Shown: piece by piece, positions 3,252-22,473 of the stretch | Numbering within the stretch: the stretch's first letter is position 1 | Layout: every line of letters begins with the position of its first letter | NCBI GenBank assembly: GCA_023666835.1 | Contig: JAMPBJ010000001.1 | Coordinates: 1,095,741 to 1,159,740, forward strand | Direction: 5' to 3' | Source of the DNA: Bacteroides sp. | Lineage (GTDB): Bacteria; Bacteroidota; Bacteroidia; Bacteroidales; Muribaculaceae | Length of the DNA stretch: 64,000 nucleotides | Position numbers and translations under genes: made by a program | The notes under the pieces: model-generated | Database searches by the model: none | The model's input: the letters and a program-made list of their open reading frames with translations, nothing else | Told to the model about the DNA's origin: nothing

Positions 3252-6408
<3,157 letters not shown>

Positions 6409-6427
6409 GACCCCATCTCATATAACA

Positions 6428-6467
6428 GGGCGGCGCAAGGCACACACCACCGCGCCGCCCCTTTTTT
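6428..6467 (+). terminator. Intrinsic terminator after the beta-galactosidase gene
   Basis: Perfect 9-bp stem GGGCGGCGC (6428-6436) with GCGCCGCCC (6452-6460), followed by CTTTTTT. Confidence 0.9.
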
Positions 6468-6488
6468 CGATACTATTCACAAAACCAG

Positions 6489-7739
6489 ATGCAAAGATCA
6501 GATTTTGAAATAATGGCCCCCGTGGGCAGCTATGAGTCGCTTCAGGCAGCCATCAATGCCGGAGCCGATGCAGTGTATTTCGGCGTCGAAGGCCTCAACA
6601 TGCGCGCCCGTTCGTCGGTCAACTTCACACTCGACGACCTCCACCGCATAGCCGCCATATGTTCGGCCAGCAACGTCAAGAGCTACCTGACGGTCAACAC
6701 AGTGATCTACGATTCGGACATTGCCACATGCCACTCGATCATCGACGCCGTGAAGCAGGCAGGCATTTCGGCCATCATTGCCAGCGACATCGCCGCCATC
6801 ACCTACGCCCGCAGCATCGGTGTCGAAGTCCACATATCCACCCAGGTCAATATCACCAATATCGAGGCAGTGGAATTCTACTCGCAGTTTGCCGACGTGG
6901 TGGTTCTGGCGCGTGAACTTAACCTCGACCAGGTCGCTGCAATCCACCGGGCAATCATCGACCGCGACATCCGCGGTCCGCACGGACGCCTTGTGCGCAT
7001 TGAGATGTTCTGCCACGGAGCACTGTGCATGGCTGTGTCGGGCAAATGCTATCTGAGCCTCCACGAGATGAATTCGAGCGCCAACCGCGGCGCATGCACG
7101 CAGATCTGCCGACGGGGCTACACGGTGCGCGATCGCGAGACCGGCGACGAGCTCGACATCGAAAACAAATACATCATGTCGCCAAAGGACTTGAAGACCA
7201 TCCACTTCCTTAACAAAATGATCGACGCCGGAGTGTCGGTGTTCAAGATCGAAGGCCGCGCACGCGGACCGGAATATGTCGGAGTGGCAGTGCAGGCCTA
7301 TAGCGAAGCCATCGAGGCGATATGCAACGGCACCTATACCGACGAGGCCATCGCACGCTGGGACGACCGGTTGCGCAAGATCTTCAACCGCGGCTTCTGG
7401 AATGGCTACTACCTGGGGCAGCGTCTGGGCGAATGGTCGTCGAAATACGGATCGAGCGCCACACGCGTCAAACGCTATGCAGCCAAGGGCGTGCGCTACT
7501 TCTCCAATATCGGAGTAGCCGAATTCTACGTCGAAAGCGGCGAAGTCAAAGTGGGCGATGAGATCGTAGTGACCGGTCCCACCACCGGAGCGCTGATCAT
7601 GACCGTCGAAGAGATTCGAGTCGACCTGAAACCTGTCGACAAAGCCGTCAAAGGCCAAAGTTTCTCAATCAAAGTGCCCTCGAAAATCCGTCCGTCCGAC
7701 CGCCTGTACGTGTGGGACGAAACCAACTTAGCCAAATAA
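6489..7739 (+). CDS. Peptidase U32 family protein (TrhP/YegQ-like)
   Basis: 416 residues. The start MQRSDFEIMAPVGSYESLQAAINAGADAVYFG is the TIM-barrel opening typical of U32 proteins, and the conserved cysteine signature is present (MFCHGALCMAVSGKCYLS followed by ANRGACTQICRRGY). Members of this family include TrhP, which acts with prephenate-derived cofactor in 5-hydroxyuridine formation in tRNA, and proteins once annotated as collagenases. The conserved Cys cluster and compact C-terminal beta domain favour the tRNA-hydroxylation type, but this is inference. It stands alone between two terminators. Confidence 0.88.
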   Translation: MQRSDFEIMAPVGSYESLQAAINAGADAVYFGVEGLNMRARSSVNFTLDDLHRIAAICSASNVKSYLTVNTVIYDSDIATCHSIIDAVKQAGISAIIASDIAAITYARSIGVEVHISTQVNITNIEAVEFYSQFADVVVLARELNLDQVAAIHRAIIDRDIRGPHGRLVRIEMFCHGALCMAVSGKCYLSLHEMNSSANRGACTQICRRGYTVRDRETGDELDIENKYIMSPKDLKTIHFLNKMIDAGVSVFKIEGRARGPEYVGVAVQAYSEAIEAICNGTYTDEAIARWDDRLRKIFNRGFWNGYYLGQRLGEWSSKYGSSATRVKRYAAKGVRYFSNIGVAEFYVESGEVKVGDEIVVTGPTTGALIMTVEEIRVDLKPVDKAVKGQSFSIKVPSKIRPSDRLYVWDETNLAK

Positions 7740-7759
7740 CGAATCGCCATGCATCACAA

Positions 7760-7801
7760 AAAAACGGGAGGACGCCACGATGAGCATCCCCCCCGTTTTT
7801 A
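7760..7801 (+). terminator. Intrinsic terminator after the U32 gene
   Basis: AAAACGGG at 7761-7768 pairs with CCCGTTTT at the 3' side (about 7792-7799) and runs into a T tract. Confidence 0.75.
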
Positions 7802-7814
7802 TTTCTACTTAGAC

Positions 7815-7984
7815 CTAAGAGCCTGTTCCATAATATTTATTAACGATGGGGCGGCCAGTCATTGAGCAGATTTGGCAGTGCTCATCAGTCACAATGGAGC
7901 CCCATTGCTCCTTAGCGTCAATCCCAAAATCACTCCACGATATGCGACCCCATCGTTAACAAATATTATGGAACAGGCTCTTAG
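7815..7984 (+). repeat. Inverted-repeat element, copy 1 (MITE-like, about 170 bp)
   Basis: The left arm (7815-7851) and right arm (7948-7984) are inverted copies of about 36 bases beginning CTAAGAGCCTGTTCCATAA, with one internal mismatch. About 96 bases of non-coding DNA lie between them. The right arm contains the stop codon of cydB (TTA at 7981-7983 on the + strand). The same sequence, shortened, is found at 12084-12157 and a half copy at 37361-37380. No transposase is encoded, so this is a non-autonomous element or a deletion derivative of an insertion sequence. Confidence 0.85.
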
Positions 7985-9123
7985 TATTTGTGGTCGGTGG
8001 ATTTGATCTCGGCCGGAGTGATGGGCTTTGATGTCATCTTATACCACACATAGGCTATGTAGGCAAGTACTAAAGGTGCGATGACTGAAACCCAACTCAT
8101 CACTTTGAGAGTGAACAGCGACGAGCTGCTGTTAGCTATTGTCAGCGACGAATTGATGTCGAGCTCCGAAGGATAGTAGGCTGTATTGTTGTAGCCTGCG
8201 ATACAGAAGAGCACAGTCACCACAAGAAATGTTCCGATGCCGGCCGGAAAGATACCGTTGACATATTTGGGCATGATCGCCGTGGCCAGAACCCCCCAGA
8301 GCACAAGCACTACACCAACGAGGAATATTATGCCGGCCACCCAAAGGTCGATGAGATTGTATAGATACTTGTTGGTCACCTCCTTCATGCCGGTCGGTGT
8401 GTATTCAACTCCCGTAGCTGTCAACAGCAAATAGAGGAACACCAGGAAGAACAGCACGAATATGACACCATTGACCAGCACCGACCGACGCTGCCTACGC
8501 AGAAATTTTGCATCACCGGCAATGGTCTTGAGAAAATAAAGCGAACCGAGTGTGCGAGCAAGGAAAAGCACAGCCACTCCGAGCACGAGATTGCGCCATT
8601 GCACTATAGCTTCGAGTCCATGGGTGGGCACCCAAGTGGAGATCACCGGGGCCGATGCATCGAGTAGATTTGTTTTGGTCACCTGAAACTCAGCTCCAAA
8701 GAAAAACATTGCCACAGCAACGCCCAGCAGCAGACAGCCTACGCAGCCGTTGATGAAGAGCAAAGTGTCGTAGAACCGGCGTCCGAAGATATTGCCGGGT
8801 TTGGAGCGGAATTCGTAGCTGACCGCCTGTATGATAAAGCTGAACAATATCAGCATCCAAAGCCAATAGGCTCCTCCGAAACTTGTGGAATAGAACAGTG
8901 GGAACGAAGCAAAAAACGCTCCGCCGAACACCACCAACGTGGTGAACGTCAGCTCCCACTTGCGGCCCAGCACATTGACCATCATCGATTGCTCCAGTTC
9001 ACTGTTGGAGCGACACAACAGCATGGTCTGTCCGCCCTGCACGAAAAGCAGAAACACAAGAAGACCACCAAACACTGAAATCAGAAGCCACCAATAGGCT
9101 TGCAAACATTCTAAAGTTGCCAT
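7981..9123 (-). CDS. cydB: Cytochrome bd ubiquinol oxidase subunit II
   Basis: 380 residues with eight or more membrane segments, beginning MATLECLQAYWWLLISVFGGLLVFLLFVQGG, the usual CydB opening. It forms the inner-membrane quinol oxidase with CydA, reducing O2 at very low oxygen. The gene starts 8 bases after cydA and is the last gene of the DUF4492-cydA-cydB operon. The stop codon lies in the outer edge of an inverted-repeat element, so the element sits exactly at the 3' end of the gene and may have replaced its original terminator. Confidence 0.95.
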   Translation of the reverse strand: MATLECLQAYWWLLISVFGGLLVFLLFVQGGQTMLLCRSNSELEQSMMVNVLGRKWELTFTTLVVFGGAFFASFPLFYSTSFGGAYWLWMLILFSFIIQAVSYEFRSKPGNIFGRRFYDTLLFINGCVGCLLLGVAVAMFFFGAEFQVTKTNLLDASAPVISTWVPTHGLEAIVQWRNLVLGVAVLFLARTLGSLYFLKTIAGDAKFLRRQRRSVLVNGVIFVLFFLVFLYLLLTATGVEYTPTGMKEVTNKYLYNLIDLWVAGIIFLVGVVLVLWGVLATAIMPKYVNGIFPAGIGTFLVVTVLFCIAGYNNTAYYPSELDINSSLTIANSSSSLFTLKVMSWVSVIAPLVLAYIAYVWYKMTSKPITPAEIKSTDHKY

Positions 9124-11624: not shown

Positions 11625-12350
11625 GCGTAAAGTTTGGCAAGTTGGCGCACTTTCTCATACCAATCGTTCATTTTCCTCATCGTCTTTGTAGGGATGTTTT
11701 AGTGTTGAAATTTTTACGCAATTCCATGGCCAAATCATAAGCGGCTTTCAAAATCGGGTAATGCCTGAATAGGATATTGACACGATGTCGTTGGATATCA
11801 GCCCATTTGTTTGAAGACATCATCAATGCGTGTTTGCTGCGGGCAAGTATCTGGCGCATTGTCTCGCCATTGGAATATGTTGTGGGTGGAATGGATTTGT
11901 CCCGTTCGTTTTCTTCGGCAATCAGTTTGCGACGAATATCGATTCGTATCTCATCAACTGCCTCATTGTACACTTGCTGGACATGGAATCGGTCGTTGAC
12001 CACGTAGGCGTTGTGGAACACTTCCTGCGCAATAAGCATCATTGACGGAGACAAGTCACATGTGACTTCTTTCACCTTGCGTCTTAGAGCCTGTTCCATA
12101 ACATTTGTTAACGATATGCGACCCCATCGTTAACAAATATTATGGAACAGGCTCTTAAGACGAAGTGGCGAGAAATGTCGCAAGTGAGGGCGTTGCTGAC
12201 GGTATCAGCAAGGTCTTTGCCGAGGTTGTCGGCAAAAAACTCGCGGATATTCATGACCGAAGCGAAGTATTTGCGAGAACCACCGTTTTCCCTTTCGGGC
12301 GTTGGCACGGCCAATATCCTTTTGAAGTGATGGGATGAGTCCTCTTTTTG
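11625..12350 (-). pseudogene. Decayed ISL3-type transposase (ISAon1-like)
   Basis: Minus-strand text matches the DDE core of ISL3 transposases: ADTVSNALTCDISRHFV, then RRKVKEVTCDLSPSMMLI, NAYVVNDRFHVQQVYNEAVDEI, and a C-terminal MNDWYEKVRQLAKLYA in another frame. Visible lesions are a missing N-terminal half, an inserted 68-bp element at 12087-12154, a frameshift near 11690 and a stop after KLYA near 11627. The 140-residue reading frame that begins MEQAL at 12099 starts inside the inserted element and is not a real gene start. No clear outer ends of the original insertion sequence can be seen. It is a relic, inactive on the evidence of the lesions. Confidence 0.82.
12084..12157 (+). repeat. 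Inverted-repeat element, copy 2, inserted in the transposase relic
   Basis: A 68-bp body (12087-12154) begins GAGCCTGTTCCATAA and ends with its inverse, flanked on both sides by TTA (12084-12086 and 12155-12157), read as a 3-bp target duplication. Removing the body and one TTA rejoins the transposase as SRHFVL-RRKVKEV in frame, and recreates a palindromic target CGTCTTAAGACG. It is a shortened form of the 7815 copy, sharing the internal stretch TATGCGACCCCATCGTTAAC. Confidence 0.88.
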
Positions 12351-14898: not shown

Positions 14899-17472
14899 AT
14901 GTCGTCCTCTCGATTTTTAATATTTGTTTTGGTGGTGTGCGGGGTGAGTATGACGGCCTCCGCAAGTAGTTCGGCTCGCAGTGATGGCGATGGCGTGGTT
15001 GTGCTCAGTGGGGATGCTTTGGGGGTGGATCCCGTTGGTTTGGTTGATAGTCTTGAGGGCGGGGCGCGGGTTTGGGATTTTTCCGATTTGTCGCGATTGG
15101 AGGATGTTTCGCTTCGGTATGTCGGCAGGGGTGATACTGCTGTGATGGAGCTTTCGCGTGATTGCCGGTTTGACTTCGCCCGTTGCAACGATGTCCATCG
15201 GCTGACATGCATAGAGGGGCGGCGCTGGCGTTTCGATATCGACTCCATTGCGGTCGATGGTCATTCGTCAAGGTTTGATACAATACGCGTCAGCGTGGAT
15301 CTCTCCAAATCTGTTTCGCTTGCCGGACTTGTCGAACAACACTATTACGGCGGCATTACCATAATACCTGTCGCAGGCGACACCATCCGCAATGCAAGCC
15401 TGTTGCTGTTGTCGTTCACAGGCAATGATCTTACTGATCCATTAAATCCGAAAAAGATCAGAGCTCTGCGGGCTTATTGGCTTGATCCGGGCTCTGCATG
15501 GCCCCTGGCAATTGCCACAGTTGTCAGCGACAGCTACTGCACACTGGCACTGTTTCCGCCATCCGAAGTATCCGGCGATCGCTTTATCGGTCTATGGCGA
15601 CAGCGAGGCTGTGATGCGTTCGACTTATTACGGGATCGCTTCATCGCTGCCGGCTACAGCTATGACTCGCATGGACGTGTCGTTCGTTCTTCACTGGCTT
15701 TCGGCGATATGTTGCCGATGCCTTTGTGTGGCAACAGTTATGATGCCTTGGGTCGTTTGGCTTTGACCAATACGGCCGGGCAGGTTGACCGCTGCCATGC
15801 CTACGATCTACACGGTTGGATCACTTCTTGGTCCACGCCTTGGATCTCCCAGCAGTTGCAGTATGCCGACGGTGCTTTGCCTTCTTACACCGGACGGATC
15901 TCTTCGAAGATAACCAATTTTGATGGCGAGTCGCGGCGCTATGACTACTCCTACGACCGCATGGGGCGATTGACCGATGCCCATTTCAGCGGAGCGTTTG
16001 GCGGGCAATCCACAAGCGAGGATTTTTCGACGTCATACACATACGATATGCAGGGAAATATCCGAACCCTGACGCGTCAGGGACTGATCGCTCCCAACTT
16101 GTTTGGATGTATCGATGACATGACCGCGACGTTCCGCGGCAATCAACTCGTGGGGCTGCGCGATGATGCCGACGATGTATTGCTCGAATCGTCGTTGGAT
16201 CTTCGATCAGGCACATACGGCTCGGACGCGTTCGACTACGACGCCAACGGCAACCAGACGCGCGACATGAGTCGCGGCGTGGCCGAAGTGGTCTACAACG
16301 CTCTCAACCTGCCGCAATCTGTCACGATGGAGGATGGCTCGACCATCAGCTATCTCTACTCTGCCGATGGAACAAAACTTGCTGAAATTGTTTGTGACGC
16401 ACAGGGAGATACAATCTCGCGTCGCGATTTTGTCGGCTCTCTCGAGTATGTCAACGGAATGCCCGATCGACTGAGCGTCGAGGGCGGCTATATTACCATT
16501 GCCGACACAACATTCCACGCCTGCATCCCCGACTATCAGGGCAACATCGTGGCGGTATACAACACAGCAACGCAAACTCTCGAGCAGACAACAGACTACT
16601 ATCCCTACGGTCTGCCACACGCCACATCGACAAATCCCGCAACCAACCGTCACAAATACGGCGCCAAAGAGCTCCAGACCGACCTCGGCCTCAACCTCTA
16701 CGACTTCGAAGCCCGCTACCAAAACCCCGTCTTACCCCACTTCACCACACCCGATCCCCTCGCCACCGACTACCACCCCATCTCACCCTACACCTACTGC
16801 GCCGCAGACCCAATAAACCTCATCGATCCCTCCGGCATGAAATTCGACCTATCGTTTTTAAATGTTACTCAATCAAAACAATGGCAAGCAACTGTCGAGA
16901 GTATGTGCAATAGCTCTAGTTTGATGAAAGTGCTCTACGATTTTCTAAATGAGTCGGATAATGTATATACTATATATGGTGTTGTCTCAACACAATCTTC
17001 AAATAGTGAGTCTCAGGCATGTTTTATAGCAGGGGAGGTAGGAGGAGTCATAGAGATAAGGAATGAAAAATTAGCCGAAGAGGCGTTGCCCAGGAATTCG
17101 ATTGCAGAAGAATTATTTCATGCATTCCAATCAGAGGTGACATACGAAAACGAAGCAAACCGCGAATTTGAGGCAAAAATTTTTCTTAGCGCATATGATA
17201 CAGAAGTAGGGATTGGAGCTTTGGGAGATGCTGACTGTATCTCTATAAGTTATTATAGAGATTTAATACAAGCTTCATTCCAAGATGGTACAAATCCCCT
17301 TCTAAGCTTGGGGAATATGGAATCCGAACCCTTTAAAACAACATACTTTTACAATGCGATACTGTATATAGAATATTGCAAAGAGAAAAATAATTTTTCT
17401 CCAAATTATACTTTAATGACAAAAGATTTGCCAAGAGCATTAATCAGATTAAATCAGATTTATAATCAATGA
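14899..17472 (+). CDS. Short RHS/YD-repeat protein with a zincin-like C-terminal tip (candidate polymorphic toxin)
   Basis: 857 residues. A signal peptide covers about residues 1-23. The middle (about 250-600) contains YD-type repeats (YSYDSHGRVV, YDYSYDRMGRLTDA, YTYDMQGNIRTL, DYDANGNQTRD) and the RHS core ends with HKYGAKELQTDLGLNLYDF-ARYQNP-FTTPDPL and DPSGM at 643-647. The remaining 210 residues are a separate domain, encoded by clearly AT-richer DNA from about 16850. It carries IAEELFHAFQ at 735-744, followed by NREFEAKIF, resembling the EExxH/HExxH helix of zinc metallopeptidase toxins. RHS proteins often end in variable toxin tips cut off after the core. The gene overlaps the next by 4 bases (ATGA). 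Toxic activity is inference; the core is much shorter than classic RHS effectors. Confidence 0.82.
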   Translation: MSSSRFLIFVLVVCGVSMTASASSSARSDGDGVVVLSGDALGVDPVGLVDSLEGGARVWDFSDLSRLEDVSLRYVGRGDTAVMELSRDCRFDFARCNDVHRLTCIEGRRWRFDIDSIAVDGHSSRFDTIRVSVDLSKSVSLAGLVEQHYYGGITIIPVAGDTIRNASLLLLSFTGNDLTDPLNPKKIRALRAYWLDPGSAWPLAIATVVSDSYCTLALFPPSEVSGDRFIGLWRQRGCDAFDLLRDRFIAAGYSYDSHGRVVRSSLAFGDMLPMPLCGNSYDALGRLALTNTAGQVDRCHAYDLHGWITSWSTPWISQQLQYADGALPSYTGRISSKITNFDGESRRYDYSYDRMGRLTDAHFSGAFGGQSTSEDFSTSYTYDMQGNIRTLTRQGLIAPNLFGCIDDMTATFRGNQLVGLRDDADDVLLESSLDLRSGTYGSDAFDYDANGNQTRDMSRGVAEVVYNALNLPQSVTMEDGSTISYLYSADGTKLAEIVCDAQGDTISRRDFVGSLEYVNGMPDRLSVEGGYITIADTTFHACIPDYQGNIVAVYNTATQTLEQTTDYYPYGLPHATSTNPATNRHKYGAKELQTDLGLNLYDFEARYQNPVLPHFTTPDPLATDYHPISPYTYCAADPINLIDPSGMKFDLSFLNVTQSKQWQATVESMCNSSSLMKVLYDFLNESDNVYTIYGVVSTQSSNSESQACFIAGEVGGVIEIRNEKLAEEALPRNSIAEELFHAFQSEVTYENEANREFEAKIFLSAYDTEVGIGALGDADCISISYYRDLIQASFQDGTNPLLSLGNMESEPFKTTYFYNAILYIEYCKEKNNFSPNYTLMTKDLPRALIRLNQIYNQ

Positions 17473-18443
17473 AACTGACTAAAATACGAGCAGCAATCAT
17501 AGTGATTTTCGCATCTATTATTTTCATGTCACTGTCCTCATTTGTCCGCGTGAGTGTTGATCCAAAAGCTTATCGACGAAATAACATAATATTTGGGAAA
17601 GCGCTTATCGACTGTTTTGGGCAAGATACGATTCTCAAATATTTAAATCAAGGAATGGGATTTTACACAAGAGCAATAATCGATACATGTGGTAATATTA
17701 GAACTTCAAAATTAAGCCTTAGATCCGGATACAATCATCGCAGAGAGCTACCCAATCATATGGTTGAAAAATTTTCGAACTATTGTGATACAACCAAACT
17801 TTCCCTAACGTGGATCTATGATCCCCTTATTTATGATGTATGTTTGTACACAGATAGCCTTGAAAGAGAGATCTTCAAACCAAAAAGATCCAAATCCGGT
17901 TGTTTTCTTAACTGGCCTACTGAATATATTTTAAATGAAAGTACTAACAAAACGCCACTTGAGATTATATATTCAACCGTTAATACTCTTAATAGTTTTA
18001 TAGATGATAAAACCAGGACAGCAATTAAAGACACTATTGATATAAATCTTGTAACACCTGAAAACTACAATACGGCGAATTTAATTATATCAATGATGTA
18101 CGCATTAGGCGAATGCCACGTCAGTAAGATGCTTGATGGAAATGATTTTACAATTATATTCATGCTCGATAGCCATGGCTATGTTCTTGATTATGAATCT
18201 ATTTATAATGCGAGTCCTATATTTGACTCTGGCATGAAGCTTGAATTACTTAAATCCTTAAAACAAAACAAAGTAAAATTTTTAGCAAGTGAAGGTAGTA
18301 CAGTTACTGTAATATTTCCAGGCAAAAACCATATCTTGCCAGAGTGCATATTTTTCGAAGGCTATTCCCATCGTTCACAAAGAGAATATTTAATTTATTC
18401 AGCAATAATTGACTTATGGAATGAGGGCAAACGAAAGAATTAA
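17469..18443 (+). CDS. AT-rich protein coupled to the RHS gene, candidate immunity protein
   Basis: 324 residues, not recognised as a known family. One N-terminal hydrophobic segment (AAIIVIFASIIFMSLSSFV) suggests a signal or membrane anchor with the rest outside the cytoplasm. The start ATG overlaps the RHS stop codon as ATGA, so translation is probably coupled. Base composition matches the RHS tip, not the neighbouring genes, suggesting that tip and gene arrived together. This arrangement is what is expected for a toxin tip and its immunity protein, but a second effector or accessory protein is also possible. The 188 bases that follow (18444-18631) hold only an imperfect hairpin at 18526-18548 without a T run. 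Confidence 0.6.
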   Translation: MKLTKIRAAIIVIFASIIFMSLSSFVRVSVDPKAYRRNNIIFGKALIDCFGQDTILKYLNQGMGFYTRAIIDTCGNIRTSKLSLRSGYNHRRELPNHMVEKFSNYCDTTKLSLTWIYDPLIYDVCLYTDSLEREIFKPKRSKSGCFLNWPTEYILNESTNKTPLEIIYSTVNTLNSFIDDKTRTAIKDTIDINLVTPENYNTANLIISMMYALGECHVSKMLDGNDFTIIFMLDSHGYVLDYESIYNASPIFDSGMKLELLKSLKQNKVKFLASEGSTVTVIFPGKNHILPECIFFEGYSHRSQREYLIYSAIIDLWNEGKRKN

Positions 18444-18631: not shown

Positions 18632-19114
18632 TCAGCCGATATGGAGGTCGGGGCGACCTTCGAAGGCGGCCACTGTGGCCGTCAGAACAGGATCGAGGTC
18701 GGCTCCTTTGGCCGTGGCCGGGTTGAAACCGGCCAGCGTGGTGCGACCGATGCATTTTGTGTGTCCGGTGGATGAATTGATGATGCGCTGCTCGATGACA
18801 AAACTGCGGGTGCCGACGTGGGTCACGGCAGTCCAAACCTGCAAAGGCTCGTCGAAATAGGCCGGTTCGAAGAAGTCGCAATTGACATTGACCACCACCG
18901 AACGGATGTCGCGCACGGTCATCGTGCCTTTCGATATCGTCTTGATGTAATCGAGTTTACCCAAATCCATCATTGAGAGATACACGTTGTTGTTGACATG
19001 GCCGAGCAGGTCGATGTCGGTGAATCGTGTCTGCAGGTCGAGACAATGGTGGAATGGATGCTCCGCAGCCGGAACGCGAGGATTGGAGGAAGGCAGATAT
19101 GATGATGGTTTCAT
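18632..19114 (-). CDS. Acyl-CoA thioesterase, 4HBT hot-dog fold
   Basis: 160 residues. TRFTDIDLLGHVNNNVYLSMMD is the YbgC/FcbC-type hot-dog signature with the catalytic Asp after the FTD and the HVNN turn. Such enzymes hydrolyse acyl-CoA or acyl-ACP thioesters in the cytoplasm; the substrate cannot be predicted. It is the last gene of the recF operon, 19 bases after the DUF721 gene. Confidence 0.85.
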   Translation of the reverse strand: MKPSSYLPSSNPRVPAAEHPFHHCLDLQTRFTDIDLLGHVNNNVYLSMMDLGKLDYIKTISKGTMTVRDIRSVVVNVNCDFFEPAYFDEPLQVWTAVTHVGTRSFVIEQRIINSSTGHTKCIGRTTLAGFNPATAKGADLDPVLTATVAAFEGRPDLHIG

Positions 19115-19133
19115 GATTCAGTGATTGCAGCAG

Positions 19134-19424
19134 TTAATGAAATTGGATATCTGTGAGTGCTTCACTTCCCACGGCATCGTTGAGCCGACGGATGAGCTGC
19201 TCGCGGTAGAACGACAGTTCGTGGCGGAGCGAAGCCGATGAGATGTAGACGTGAAGTACCCCGGCATCCACATATCGGCGATAGGTATAACGGTTTACGC
19301 CGGGACCTACCACCTCCGACCACAAAAAGCAGGCGCGCTGCTGTGCGAGCGTGTCGGTGGCGCCGGCACGAGCCATTGCTTCATCAAATATCGAGGCAAA
19401 CGATTTGGGTTCGGTGCGTTTCAT
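19134..19424 (-). CDS. DUF721 (DciA-like) protein
   Basis: 96 residues from the Met at 19424 (MKRTEPKSFASIFDEAM). An upstream Met at 19469 would overlap recF by 35 bases and adds residues that do not look like the family. The text ACFLWSEVVGPGVNRYTYRRYVDAGVLHVYISSASLRHELSF is the DUF721 fold (KH-like) found in DciA, the widespread loader of replicative helicase. Position directly after recF is common in Bacteroidetes and supports a role in replication. Whether this short form loads helicase is not known to me. Confidence 0.8.
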   Translation of the reverse strand: MKRTEPKSFASIFDEAMARAGATDTLAQQRACFLWSEVVGPGVNRYTYRRYVDAGVLHVYISSASLRHELSFYREQLIRRLNDAVGSEALTDIQFH

Positions 19425-19434
19425 GCGGAGTGGT

Positions 19435-20544
19435 TCAGGGATTAGCCGGTGTGAATTGACCGTCGGCAACAGTCCATAGACTGAAATTGCCGGGCATGCG
19501 GCTGATGATGTCGTCGAGATGCTTGCGGTTGGTGTCGGTGATGAAAATCTGACCGAACTGACCGTCGGTGGTCACGATATTCATGATGCGCTCCACGCGG
19601 TCGGCATCGAGCTTGTCGAAAATGTCGTCGAGAAGCAGCAACGGTTTCAGACCGGTGGCTTTGTGCAGAAAATCGTACTGTGCGAGTCGCAGGGCGATGG
19701 TGAAGGTCTTGCACTGGCCCTGTGACCCACTCCGACGCAAAGGCATATCATTGAGAGTCATGGTAATATCATCGCGATGAGGGCCAACAGTGGTGTGGTG
19801 CAGGATTTCGTCGCGACGTCGCGAAGCCTCCAGTGCATCAGAGAGCGATGCGTGGCCATCGACAGCTATGGAGTTGAGGTAGCCGATTTCGACTTTCTCG
19901 GTCGACGAAGCTATCAGGCTGTAGTAGCGTGCAAACAGACCGGTGAGGGTGTCGACCCATGCCGAGCGGCGCGAAGTGATGATGGCGGCGGCCATCTCCA
20001 TGCCCGCTTCCAGGGCTTCGTAGAGTGTGCCGTCAGTGGCGCCGTCGCGCAAAAGTCGGTTGCGTTGATCGAGAAGCATGGTGTAGCGTATCACCGCGTC
20101 GAGATATATGTGGTCGCTTTGCGAGATGACCATGTCCATCCACCGTCGGCGCTGTTCGCCACTGCCCTGTATCAGGTCGATATCCTGCGGCGAGGCCATC
20201 ACCAACGGATACCGGCCGATATGTTCACTCAATCGCTGATATTCCTTGCCGCCACGGCGAAGGCTCTTGCGCCGTCCGCGCTGCATACCCAGTGTCAGCT
20301 GTTCGGGAGCGTCTCGGCGCACATAGTCGGCCTTGGCGGTGAGGAAATCCTCGCCCATGCGGATGAGCATGGCGTCGGTCATTCCCGAGAAACTTTTGCA
20401 GAAACTCAGATAGTGAATGGCGTCGAGAAGATTGCTCTTACCCATGCCGTTGTTGCCCAAAAAGCAGTTGATCTTTTCGGAGAAGTCGAGCGAGGCCTCG
20501 GCAATGTTTTTAAAATTGGTGAGCGAAAGATGTACAATTTGCAT
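19435..20544 (-). CDS. recF: DNA replication and repair protein RecF
   Basis: 369 residues, normal length. MQIVHLSLTNFKNIAEASLDF opening, Walker A GNNGMGKSNLLDAIHYL and the ABC-type end LLLLDDIFDKLDADRV are all present. RecF loads RecA at gapped DNA together with RecO and RecR. It leads a leftward operon with DUF721 and a thioesterase. The start is 31 bases from its -7 element. Confidence 0.96.
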   Translation of the reverse strand: MQIVHLSLTNFKNIAEASLDFSEKINCFLGNNGMGKSNLLDAIHYLSFCKSFSGMTDAMLIRMGEDFLTAKADYVRRDAPEQLTLGMQRGRRKSLRRGGKEYQRLSEHIGRYPLVMASPQDIDLIQGSGEQRRRWMDMVISQSDHIYLDAVIRYTMLLDQRNRLLRDGATDGTLYEALEAGMEMAAAIITSRRSAWVDTLTGLFARYYSLIASSTEKVEIGYLNSIAVDGHASLSDALEASRRRDEILHHTTVGPHRDDITMTLNDMPLRRSGSQGQCKTFTIALRLAQYDFLHKATGLKPLLLLDDIFDKLDADRVERIMNIVTTDGQFGQIFITDTNRKHLDDIISRMPGNFSLWTVADGQFTPANP

Positions 20545-20552
20545 ATCAGTTA

Positions 20553-20582
20553 CAAAAGTACAAAAAAATTCAACTATATTTG
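20553..20582. promoter_or_regulatory. Divergent promoters between recF and the kinase gene
   Basis: Rightward -7 TATATTTG at 20575-20582 serves the kinase gene. Leftward -7 TACTTTTG (minus strand, 20553-20560) serves recF. Good -33 elements are not seen for either, so the two may compete for one short region. Confidence 0.55.
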
Positions 20583-20643
20583 CGATAGGAATCCATGTTT
20601 AACCATGTTTTCCCTCAACCGCATCAATCACAAATCACAAGCA

Positions 20644-22473
20644 ATGAGCAATCCAGTTTTTGCAATGCCAATCGGCTCGGTTCTTCGGTCGCCCTACTCC
20701 ACCTACGAAGTGCTTCAAGTGCTCGGGTCGGGAGGATTCGGCATCACATATCTGGCCCAATCGCAGACAACGGTGGGCAACATCCCCGTGACCTTCAAAG
20801 TGGCCATAAAAGAGCACTTTTTGCGTTCCGACTGCAGCCGTGATGCATCCGGCACGGGCATCAGCTACCCGACCAGCTCGCGCCAAAAGGTCGAAGCCGC
20901 CTGTCGCGACTTCGTGCGCGAAGCATGCAATCTGCGCTCCATTGCCGGACAGTGCGAAAACATCGTGCGCGTCAACGAAGTGTTTGAGGCCAACGGCACG
21001 GCCTATTATGTGATGGAATATCTCGGCGGCATGAGTCTGCGCGACTATATCCGCACCAACGGTCCGGTGACGGTGGATCGCGCTCTTGAGATCATGATGC
21101 CGGTAATCAACGCCGTGGGCGTGCTCCACTCGCTCTACATCAACCACCTCGACATAAAGCCGGCCAACATAATGCTGGAAAAAAACGAGCGCGGAACTGA
21201 ACGGCCGGTACTCATCGACTTCGGTCTTTCGCGCCATTACAACACCGACGGAGCTCCCACAACGTCGATAGGTATGACAGGCGTGACCGATGGTTTTTCG
21301 CCCATCGAGCAATATTCGGGCATAACCGAATTCTCGCCCGCCAGCGACGTCTACTCACTTGCAGCCACTCTCGTCTACTGCCTGACAGGAAACACACTTC
21401 CTCCGGCTTTGGAGACCAATCGACAGAGTATCGAAGCAATTCTGCCGGCATCGGTGCCTGCAGGACTACGTCAGGTGTTGGAGCGTGCTTTGTCGCTTGC
21501 GCTGGTCAACCGTCAGCCCAACGCTTCGGTATTGGCACAAGAACTTGCTCCTTATGCAGCATCTGCGGCAACTTCTTCAACAGACACCACGACTACCTCT
21601 GTCGCCGGCGATTTCACCAGACCTGTCACTCCAGCCGTCACTCCGATAATATCCGACAATGACCGCAACGACACAGTGATCTCCACCCCTCCCCCTCCAT
21701 CGTCACCTACCCCCGGCTACGGCGCTCCCTCCCCTGTTGAACCGATCCGTTTCGGTGGCAAAAAGAAAAAGAGCGGTGGCTCAGCGGCCTGGATCTATGT
21801 GCTCATCGGTCTGCTCGTGGCTGCAGTGGCCGGAATAGTGGTGTATATGCTGGTCAGCTCCGGCGGCAAGACCGTGGTGCGCGACGACGATGATTTCGAA
21901 TTCACCGATGAAAGCTGGGAAGAACAGACCTCCAGTCCTGCAATGACCGACAACTCCAACCGACCGGTTGAAGCCACAGAAGTCGTTGAAGTAGAGGAAG
22001 TAGCACCCGAATCGACTTACTCATCACTTCAGGGCGATTACGACTTCCTGTTCCAGCAACTCAAACCGGGCACACACGTGAAGTCGCTGAAATGGTCAGG
22101 CAACGTGTTCACTTTCGCACCCAACGGTGAGTGGACCAATCCCTACTACGAAGACTCGCTCACCGACCGCGACTGGAACATATCCAACAGCCGGCGTACG
22201 TCGGAGTACTATACATACAACGGCGACCGCGGCGTGATGGAGTATTACTGGAACGGCGACAACATATCTTCGATCGTCGACAATACCCGTGGATTCACCG
22301 TGTATCGCTACTACAATTCAGACGGCACACTGTCGTCGTCGGTGACTTCCTACCACGATGGCCGTCCCAGCAAGGAGTACACATACACCAACTACAAGTT
22401 TGACAGCAACGGCAACTGGACGTCGCGCAAAGTCAACGGCAACACGGAATCACGAACCATTACATACTATTAG
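20644..22473 (+). CDS. Membrane-anchored eukaryotic-like Ser/Thr protein kinase
   Basis: 609 residues from MSNPVFAMPIG at 20644; an in-frame ATG at 20605 is an alternative, only about 15 bases after the likely transcription start. The N-terminal kinase domain (about 15-300) has the P-loop GSGGFGITYLA, the VAIKE lysine, catalytic HLDIKPANIML with Asp170, DFGLSRH and the ASDVYSLAATLVYCLTG helix. A Pro-rich linker, a KKKKS stop signal and one membrane span (about 382-406) follow. The outer C-terminal part (about 450-609) has short Tyr/Asp/Gly-rich repeats such as YYNSDGTLSSSVTSYHDGR and YKFDSNGNWTSR, resembling YD-type beta repeats. Together they suggest a receptor kinase sensing envelope ligands. 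A lipoprotein gene follows 32 bases downstream. Confidence 0.88.
   Translation: MSNPVFAMPIGSVLRSPYSTYEVLQVLGSGGFGITYLAQSQTTVGNIPVTFKVAIKEHFLRSDCSRDASGTGISYPTSSRQKVEAACRDFVREACNLRSIAGQCENIVRVNEVFEANGTAYYVMEYLGGMSLRDYIRTNGPVTVDRALEIMMPVINAVGVLHSLYINHLDIKPANIMLEKNERGTERPVLIDFGLSRHYNTDGAPTTSIGMTGVTDGFSPIEQYSGITEFSPASDVYSLAATLVYCLTGNTLPPALETNRQSIEAILPASVPAGLRQVLERALSLALVNRQPNASVLAQELAPYAASAATSSTDTTTTSVAGDFTRPVTPAVTPIISDNDRNDTVISTPPPPSSPTPGYGAPSPVEPIRFGGKKKKSGGSAAWIYVLIGLLVAAVAGIVVYMLVSSGGKTVVRDDDDFEFTDESWEEQTSSPAMTDNSNRPVEATEVVEVEEVAPESTYSSLQGDYDFLFQQLKPGTHVKSLKWSGNVFTFAPNGEWTNPYYEDSLTDRDWNISNSRRTSEYYTYNGDRGVMEYYWNGDNISSIVDNTRGFTVYRYYNSDGTLSSSVTSYHDGRPSKEYTYTNYKFDSNGNWTSRKVNGNTESRTITYY

Follow-up and report, generated by a model that had tools for sequence, protein, structure and literature searches.

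The window analysed here is a stretch of 64,000 nucleotides from a draft Muribaculaceae genome (G000; 1.79 Mb, 11 contigs, 79% complete). It contains a gene for a protein with RHS repeats, which ends in a small AT-rich C-terminal domain, hereafter called the tip, and which is overlapped by the next gene, hereafter called the partner. Comparison of these genes with those of related genomes makes it likely that they encode a polymorphic, probably antibacterial, toxin and its immunity protein. Three findings carry this reading: the RHS core is found in the same genome with other tips, the tip belongs to a family with an unusual zincin-like motif, EExxH, and relatives of the partner recur next to such tips in other genomes.

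One core end with several tips

When scanned with Pfam and NCBIfam, the window protein matched RHS_repeat (E 5.6e-8), and its YD repeats were followed by an RHS-associated core that ended in a DPxG motif. The match to Rhs_assc_core (NCBIfam) stopped exactly at residue 647, the last residue of DPSGM (residues 643-647). A preliminary description of this DNA, made from the letters and their open reading frames (ORFs), had placed a sharp change of base composition at this point. Indeed, the GC fraction was 0.548 in the part that precedes the tip (14899-16839), 0.351 in the tip, 0.335 in the partner gene, and 0.557 further downstream (18632-20544).

The core end of the window protein (residues 545-647) recurred at two other places in G000, with 96% and 94% protein identity when residues 1-647 were used as the query. 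At the DNA level, identity over about 320 bp of core end was 92% for one copy (L084, contig C3 at 931 kb) and 90% for the other (L085, C3 at 168 kb). It collapsed within one 40-base step, from 39/40 and 35/40 to 12/40 and 9/40, at window positions 16841/16843, that is, at the codon after DPSGM. Beyond the core, one of the recurring copies (L072) had a Toxin-JAB1 tip (Pfam PF15659, E 7e-14) followed by a gene for 202 amino acids (aa), and the other (L077) an HENAH tip followed by a gene for 244 aa, both with a hydrophobic stretch near the N-terminus. The RHS shell is thus a repeated module in G000, in which differing cassettes of tip and downstream gene are joined at the DPSG(M) codon. A conserved core with exchangeable tips, here a single core end with three different tips within G000, is the design that defines polymorphic toxins, and the occurrence of this core end with different tips and different downstream genes therefore identifies the window gene as one of them. 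That a separate gene, coding for a hydrophobic N-terminus, comes after each of the three tips bears out the toxin/immunity layout proposed in the preliminary description.

A fourth RHS gene of G000 had an HEADH tip followed by a gene for 164 aa. Further tips were found on RHS genes elsewhere in the genus, namely HExxH types, HNH-like and NlpC-like, these types being assigned by eye. In two genomes (L055 and L071), a similar tip was present with no downstream gene of at least 80 aa starting between -60 and +150 bases from its stop.

We also compared the site itself among relatives. The thioesterase gene that lies downstream in the window has a relative in 28 of the 34 genomes of the genus, own included, and stretches from 20 of the 27 others were compared. 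The order recF-DUF721-thioesterase was kept in 19 of these, L088 showing the thioesterase only. None of the 20 same-genus stretches, three of which are cut short by a contig end about 1.8 to 4.2 kb away on the side in question, had a match to glnA, the RHS part, the tip or the partner beside the thioesterase gene (tblastn, E 1e-3). The presence of the toxin at this site is therefore not fixed, and the same tip and partner at this place in all relatives, which the preliminary description had regarded as an argument against its proposal, was not what we found.

The EExxH tip family and its relation to zincins

We collected ten loci with related tips: the window, L003 (= L023), L007, L008, L012, L013, L020, L021, L022, and L024. 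Their hosts are all Bacteroidota and include Muribaculaceae (L003/L023, from the same genus as the window), Prevotellaceae, unclassified Bacteroidales and Taibaiella. Although the nine other tips shared 15-30% identity with the window tip, both Glu and the His of EExxH and all fixed positions of a downstream N-x-E-x-E-A-K motif were invariant in all ten (E90, E91, H94, N107, E109, E111, A112, and K113 in tip numbering). As judged from the alignment, this conservation exceeds chance. The two motifs correspond to IAEELFHAFQ and NREFEAKIF, to which the preliminary description had drawn attention (coordinates in Table 1).

Searches with the window tip alone gave a match in 3 of 101 relatives' genomes, and those with small profiles in 6 of 397 family genomes and 8 of 393 order genomes; these counts comprise the own genome as well as weak rows that were later dropped. 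With a 10-row profile and a stricter limit (E 1e-4), the own genome was the only one of 395 phylum genomes to match, so the family appears to be sparse, or its sampling thin. A search of genome contigs yielded 5 loci out of 40 candidate stretches. No relative was found in 31 candidate stretches of viral contigs, or on plasmids when these were searched by tblastn with the tip of L020.

Three candidates were rejected: L004, whose match runs antisense to a long unrelated ORF, L009, an unrelated ORF by eye, and L014, whose ORFs had no visible motif. Also left out were L010 (partial, with one stop) and L015, L016, L018, and L019 (partial, E 7.7e-4 to 0.0036), while L017, which has HExxH, was moved to a sister set. 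In the Prevotellaceae locus L020, a second copy of the RHS core (6620-8220) was observed just downstream of the tip and partner; it has a different tip, JAB-like by eye, and is followed in turn by a gene of its own that begins like a signal peptide.

The tip family is unnamed in any library that we searched. In Pfam, NCBIfam and PADLOC, the window tip had no match that was convincing or above a cut-off (Flavodoxin_NdrI, 0.036; SAC3, 0.043; PRK13779, 0.079). Eight other tips of the family had no Pfam match above cut-off; that of L020 touched DUF6782, a putative metallopeptidase family, at E 0.094, below the cut-off, and was also the one that gave the best PHROGs score (0.013), which was not convincing either.

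Evidence for the ancestry of the tip was provided by L017, an RHS tip with a canonical HExxH at the place of EExxH. It showed a weak similarity, below the cut-off, to Peptidase_M91 (E 0.002), the family of HopH1/NleD-like domains, and a search with it gave a match in 6 of 393 genomes, among them the one it came from. A sister profile was made from L017, L109, and L112 only; L108 (L017 again), L110 and L113 (both partial), and L111 (too divergent) were left out. When the EExxH profile was compared with this HExxH profile by hhalign, the two aligned with a probability of 94.3, an E of 1e-7 and a score of 54.7, the best of 200 column shuffles reaching 19.1. EExxH fell onto HExxH, and the downstream E-x-E-A onto E-[LV]-E-A. 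The comparison with these three HExxH tips indicates that the EExxH family is homologous to an HExxH family.

A model of the window tip was predicted with AlphaFold2 from six sequences, with a predicted local distance difference test (pLDDT) of 71.5 and a predicted template modelling score of 0.71. It comprises helices and three strands, then the EExxH helix, then the NREFEAK helix. Among viral predicted structures, a single protein, named Lethal factor, matched it at E <= 0.001 (E 5.7e-4, the best match), and the first ten matches included IrrE-like, M61 and SprT-like proteins. We regard the predicted fold, for which the Protein Data Bank (PDB) gave no match at E <= 0.001, as moderate evidence. 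The preliminary description had likened the motif to a zincin helix in which the first His is Glu. The profile comparison speaks for descent from a zincin that exchanged its first zinc-binding His for Glu, and the predicted fold does so less firmly.

This replacement raises the question of whether the tip is an enzyme at all. It might instead have kept the zincin fold without catalysis and act by binding its target, the partner still being an immunity protein. All ten tips have Glu in place of the first metal ligand of HExxH, a position where Glu is rare in zincins. However, the second Glu, the His and the N-x-E-x-E-A-K motif have stayed invariant between very divergent sequences, which is unlike a decaying site, and for the proteins ZIP8 and ZIP14, EEXXH has been reported to be an altered form of the HEXXH metal motif (PMC5661630; the papers cited by such numbers were available in part, and our statements refer to those parts). 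We consider a pseudo-enzyme unlikely for these reasons.

The partner gene family

Sequence downstream of the tip was readable at nine of the ten loci, L008 ending inside the tip. In all nine, a gene coding for a hydrophobic N-terminal stretch adjoined the tip, at or near its stop, a statement that concerns the layout only. In the window, the preliminary description had reported an ATGA overlap, a similar base composition and a membrane or signal start for this gene, all of which we confirmed (Table 1; signal peptides were judged by eye throughout).

One partner family was clear in six of the nine loci (the window, L003, L007, L012, L020, and L022). We built a hidden Markov model (HMM) from the mature proteins of L012, L020, and L022, whose partners have 179-194 aa. 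Each of these three was detected by an HMM made from the other two (0/2000 shuffles reaching the score in each case). The N-terminal halves of the window and L003 partners and the L007 partner also scored above all 2000 shuffles each. By these profile scores, the downstream gene is a member of a family that recurs beside the tip in other genomes, i.e. in the window and next to five other tips with EExxH. The homology of the window and L003 partners rests on the HMM score: a search with the window tip found that of L003 at 34% identity, while the similarity of the partners was not significant by BLASTP (E 2.8). Immunity proteins are expected to diverge fast.

The window partner looks duplicated, since a second, weaker copy was detected in its C-terminal half (0/2000 shuffles), and its two halves aligned by hhalign with an E of 3e-4 and a probability of 39.9. 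The C-terminal half of the L003 partner gave a score reached by 63 of 2000 shuffles. Support for a duplication within the window partner is thus moderate only.

Like the tip, the partner could not be named, as the preliminary description had stated: no Pfam or NCBIfam model matched it above cut-off, and a PADLOC match (PDLC03617, 0.038) was unconvincing. A mannanase found in a sequence comparison with the PDB was rejected as a relative (E 0.18). As the partner of L024 carries TonB_C, we looked for a hairpin of this kind in the window partner; the score of 19.7 over 30 columns (probability 3.3, best of 200 shuffles 16.2) may be taken as a hint, which we do not put forward as a claim. The structure model of the partner was too poor (pLDDT 43) and was not used. 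With its position and its relatives, the partner is probably an immunity protein.

Table 1. Features of the toxin gene and the partner gene in the window
Feature	Position	Strand	Remarks
RHS toxin ORF	14899-17472	+	857 aa; RHS repeats, RHS-associated core and tip
Signal peptide (by eye) and N-domain	14899..15654	+	Residues 1-252; homologous to the N-terminal part of secreted companions of about 350 aa
YD repeats and RHS-associated core	15655..16839	+	Residues 253-647; ends in DPSGM
Rhs_assc_core (NCBIfam)	16597-16839	+	Residues 567-647; E 6.5e-14
C-terminal toxin tip, EExxH family	16840..17472	+	Residues 648-857 and stop; GC 0.351
EExxH motif	17107..17121	+	Residues 737-741; aligns with HExxH of sister tips
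NREFEAK	17158..17178	+	Residues 754-760; conserved N-x-E-x-E-A-K helix, presumed site of the third metal ligand
ATGA overlap	17469..17472	+	Start of partner and stop of toxin
Putative immunity gene	17469..18443	+	324 aa; hydrophobic, signal-like N-terminus; GC 0.335
Partner, first half	17496..17963	+	Stretch matched is residues 10-86, half taken to residue 165; single-domain partners related
Partner, second, weaker repeat	18063..18281	+	Residues 199-271

The RHS gene is preceded in the window by a glutamine synthetase gene (glnA). A few hundred bases upstream of the latter lies an apparently incomplete ISL3-type transposase fragment (11677-12099, minus strand; DDE_Tnp_ISL3, E 5e-21). On the other side, a long ORF (19777-22473, plus strand) resembles, by eye, a serine/threonine kinase with a transmembrane segment in its later two thirds.

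Export, alternative explanations and comparison with known systems

The preliminary description had suggested, from the short RHS part and the signal peptide, that delivery may differ from that of classic RHS effectors. Our findings agree with this suggestion. No PAAR, VgrG or other known RHS delivery head was matched in the window protein with Pfam and NCBIfam, and residues 1-252 matched no family in these libraries (whether they hold the TANFOR model was not checked). Instead, residues 26-222 or so matched the N-terminal part of separate genes of about 350 aa in two other genomes, G010 (41%) and G033 (34%), where these genes immediately precede full RHS genes, with an ATGA overlap. The RHS part of the window protein thus appears short because its N-terminus is a domain of a separate secreted companion that precedes RHS genes in relatives. 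In the window, the N-domain is fused to the second half of the RHS protein, and in L003 straight to the tip, with no core.

A secreted gene of about 350 aa was present upstream at five of nine RHS loci examined (L087, from the own genome, L115, L116, L118, and L122); in the other four, the stretch begins inside the RHS gene. When the N-domain profile was compared with these genes after removal of the signal peptides, the scores of the L087 and L122 genes were reached by none of 1000 shuffles each, and the weak one of L118 by 15 of 1000. From these comparisons, the upstream gene looks like a conserved companion of RHS toxins in the genus, support being weak for L118.

The two companions in G010 and G033 (L073 and L075) ended in a sub-threshold TIGR04183 tail of the type IX secretion system (T9SS; 17.6 and 17.1 bits, cut-off 23), one of which was also matched by the Pfam T9SS-tail model (E 0.047). 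No such tail was found with NCBIfam in the upstream genes of L087, L118, and L122. G000 encodes the T9SS protein SprA (2715 bits), while VipB, the sheath protein of the type VI system and the single marker of that system that we searched for, was not found in this genome, which is 79% complete. Because of SprA, the signal peptide, the companion genes and the precedent of the TANFOR toxins (PMC7073777), our best guess is that the toxin is exported by the T9SS. The partner also carries an export-type N-terminus, which suggests that the tip acts outside the cytoplasm.

The toxin would then leave the cytoplasm via Sec and cross the outer membrane, most likely through the T9SS, the RHS shell holding the tip until its release near DPSGM. 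The tip may be a metal-dependent hydrolase, most simply a peptidase or an amidase, that attacks a nearby Bacteroidota cell in its periplasm or on its surface. In the producer and its siblings, the partner, once exported, would bind the tip in the periplasm. More tentatively, the fixed His-to-Glu change could re-tool the zincin site for another metal or reaction, and RHS killing could proceed without type VI, through T9SS export via a companion whose N-domain is sometimes fused to the toxin; we would not count on this extended version.

Several observations weigh against a catalytic, T9SS-exported toxin with its own immunity gene. The HExxH expected of zincins is EExxH in every tip of the family. 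A check of the predicted structure for a zincin-like site, which the preliminary description had called for, gave the zincin-named viral proteins mentioned above, but Foldseek returned nothing at E <= 0.001 from the PDB. The first PDB row was SjiH-Ni (E 0.25), which is not known to be a zincin, and about 10 of the 50 rows shown were zincins (PPEP-1, LTA4H, ADAMTS4, BepA, ACE2, and others), all at E 0.3 or worse. A comparison of the tip profile with PDB chains by sequence gave no match. The partners of L013 and L021 were borderline (30 and 24 of 2000 shuffles reaching the score), and that of L024 was unrelated by the HMM test (1095/2000); this gene (5601-6851) carries TonB_C (E 7e-6) in place of the usual partner family. 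Neither Pfam nor NCBIfam detected a T9SS C-terminal sorting tail in the window protein. Finally, an assembly join inside the window gene is possible, as the draft is incomplete and other RHS cores lie at 100-N gaps.

The last point relates to a second locus, on contig C10. It is 99% identical to the window gene over its first 749 bp, continues with about 1.1 kb of extra YD-repeat DNA, and then returns to the window sequence for 55 bp at the contig end, with broken frames. Gaps of 100 N were also found at or near RHS genes of the same genome (L084, 5897-5996; L085, 5104-5203; L087, 11525-11624). The end of C10 and these gaps suggest that repeats disturbed the assembly.

The extra DNA of C10 falls where the window gene joins N-domain and core, as would be expected if this gene were a silent or decaying cassette, i.e. 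if an internal deletion had left a short, undelivered RHS remnant that serves as a recombination donor, the immunity gene being kept for defence. The seven complete tip-bearing RHS genes that we saw encode 1172-2126 aa, though open frames of 312-809 aa also occur, and the coreless fusion of L003 could be taken in the same sense. Yet the window ORF is intact, with a start and a signal-like N-terminus, as is that of the partner, and the N-domain is fused in frame to this tip or its core in two genomes, perhaps independently. Such a remnant therefore seems rather improbable to us.

Still less probable is a chimera of the assembly, in which the tip would stem from another copy of the RHS gene than the N-domain and the core. 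Repeats of the shell are 90-99% identical, other copies have the N gaps just mentioned, and the overlap between the end of contig C10 and the internal junction of the window gene is exactly 55 bp long, as is typical of k-mer assemblies. But the window contains no run of N, other genomes also show a core end joined to a tip of this family, and the pairing of partner and tip is independent of the join. We give very little credit to a secreted protease directed against a eukaryotic host, which the weak likeness of L017 to Peptidase_M91 and the action of HopH1/NleD-like domains in plant and animal cells (PMC3482391) might evoke, since a gene with a hydrophobic N-terminus follows the tip at all readable loci, as if the producer and its kin were at risk.

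What we retain is a real polymorphic toxin/immunity layout, with a tip and a partner family unnamed in the libraries searched, an unusual variant of an active site, and an export route that is plausible but unproven. It would define a toxin/immunity family for a common gut lineage, and offers a natural experiment on an HExxH enzyme with Glu as its first metal ligand. Among the papers listed by our searches of open PubMed Central, no title or opening part of an abstract pointed to EExxH RHS tips or Muribaculaceae RHS toxins of this type.

The nearest known domains are Tox-MPTase1-5 and the HopH1-like domains (Zhang et al. 2012, PMC3482391), small tips of zincin type as well, which usually form the C-terminus of RHS polymorphic toxins. 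In the available part of that paper, all of them have HExxH, in one case as HEELH, whereas the window family combines EExxH with its partner family; EExxH was not found in that part. By sequence, the window tip was compared with Tox-MPTase1-5 through the Pfam and NCBIfam scans. The same paper describes Tox-JAB-1, which from its name we equate with Toxin-JAB1 (PF15659), together with Imm65, in Bacteroidetes; this different tip is the one that the RHS core of the window carries elsewhere in G000. Imm65 is noted there to have a signal peptide, as the window partner has a signal-like start, a likeness by description only. In ZIP8 and ZIP14, EEXXH replaces HEXXH and is believed to aid a broader metal specificity (PMC5661630); these are transporters, not peptidases, and we claim no homology with the tip.

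TANFOR toxins (PMC7073777) resemble the window system in having a Sec signal, a variable C-terminal toxin and a downstream immunity gene. Their genes have T9SS cargo genes as neighbours, and T9SS export has been proposed for them. The window system differs from them by its N-terminal head, by the RHS core, and by the fusion of the companion's N-domain to the toxin. The order of companion, RHS gene and downstream gene, together with the presence of SprA, provides a handle on the export of antibacterial toxins by the T9SS, the question raised for TANFOR (PMC7073777).

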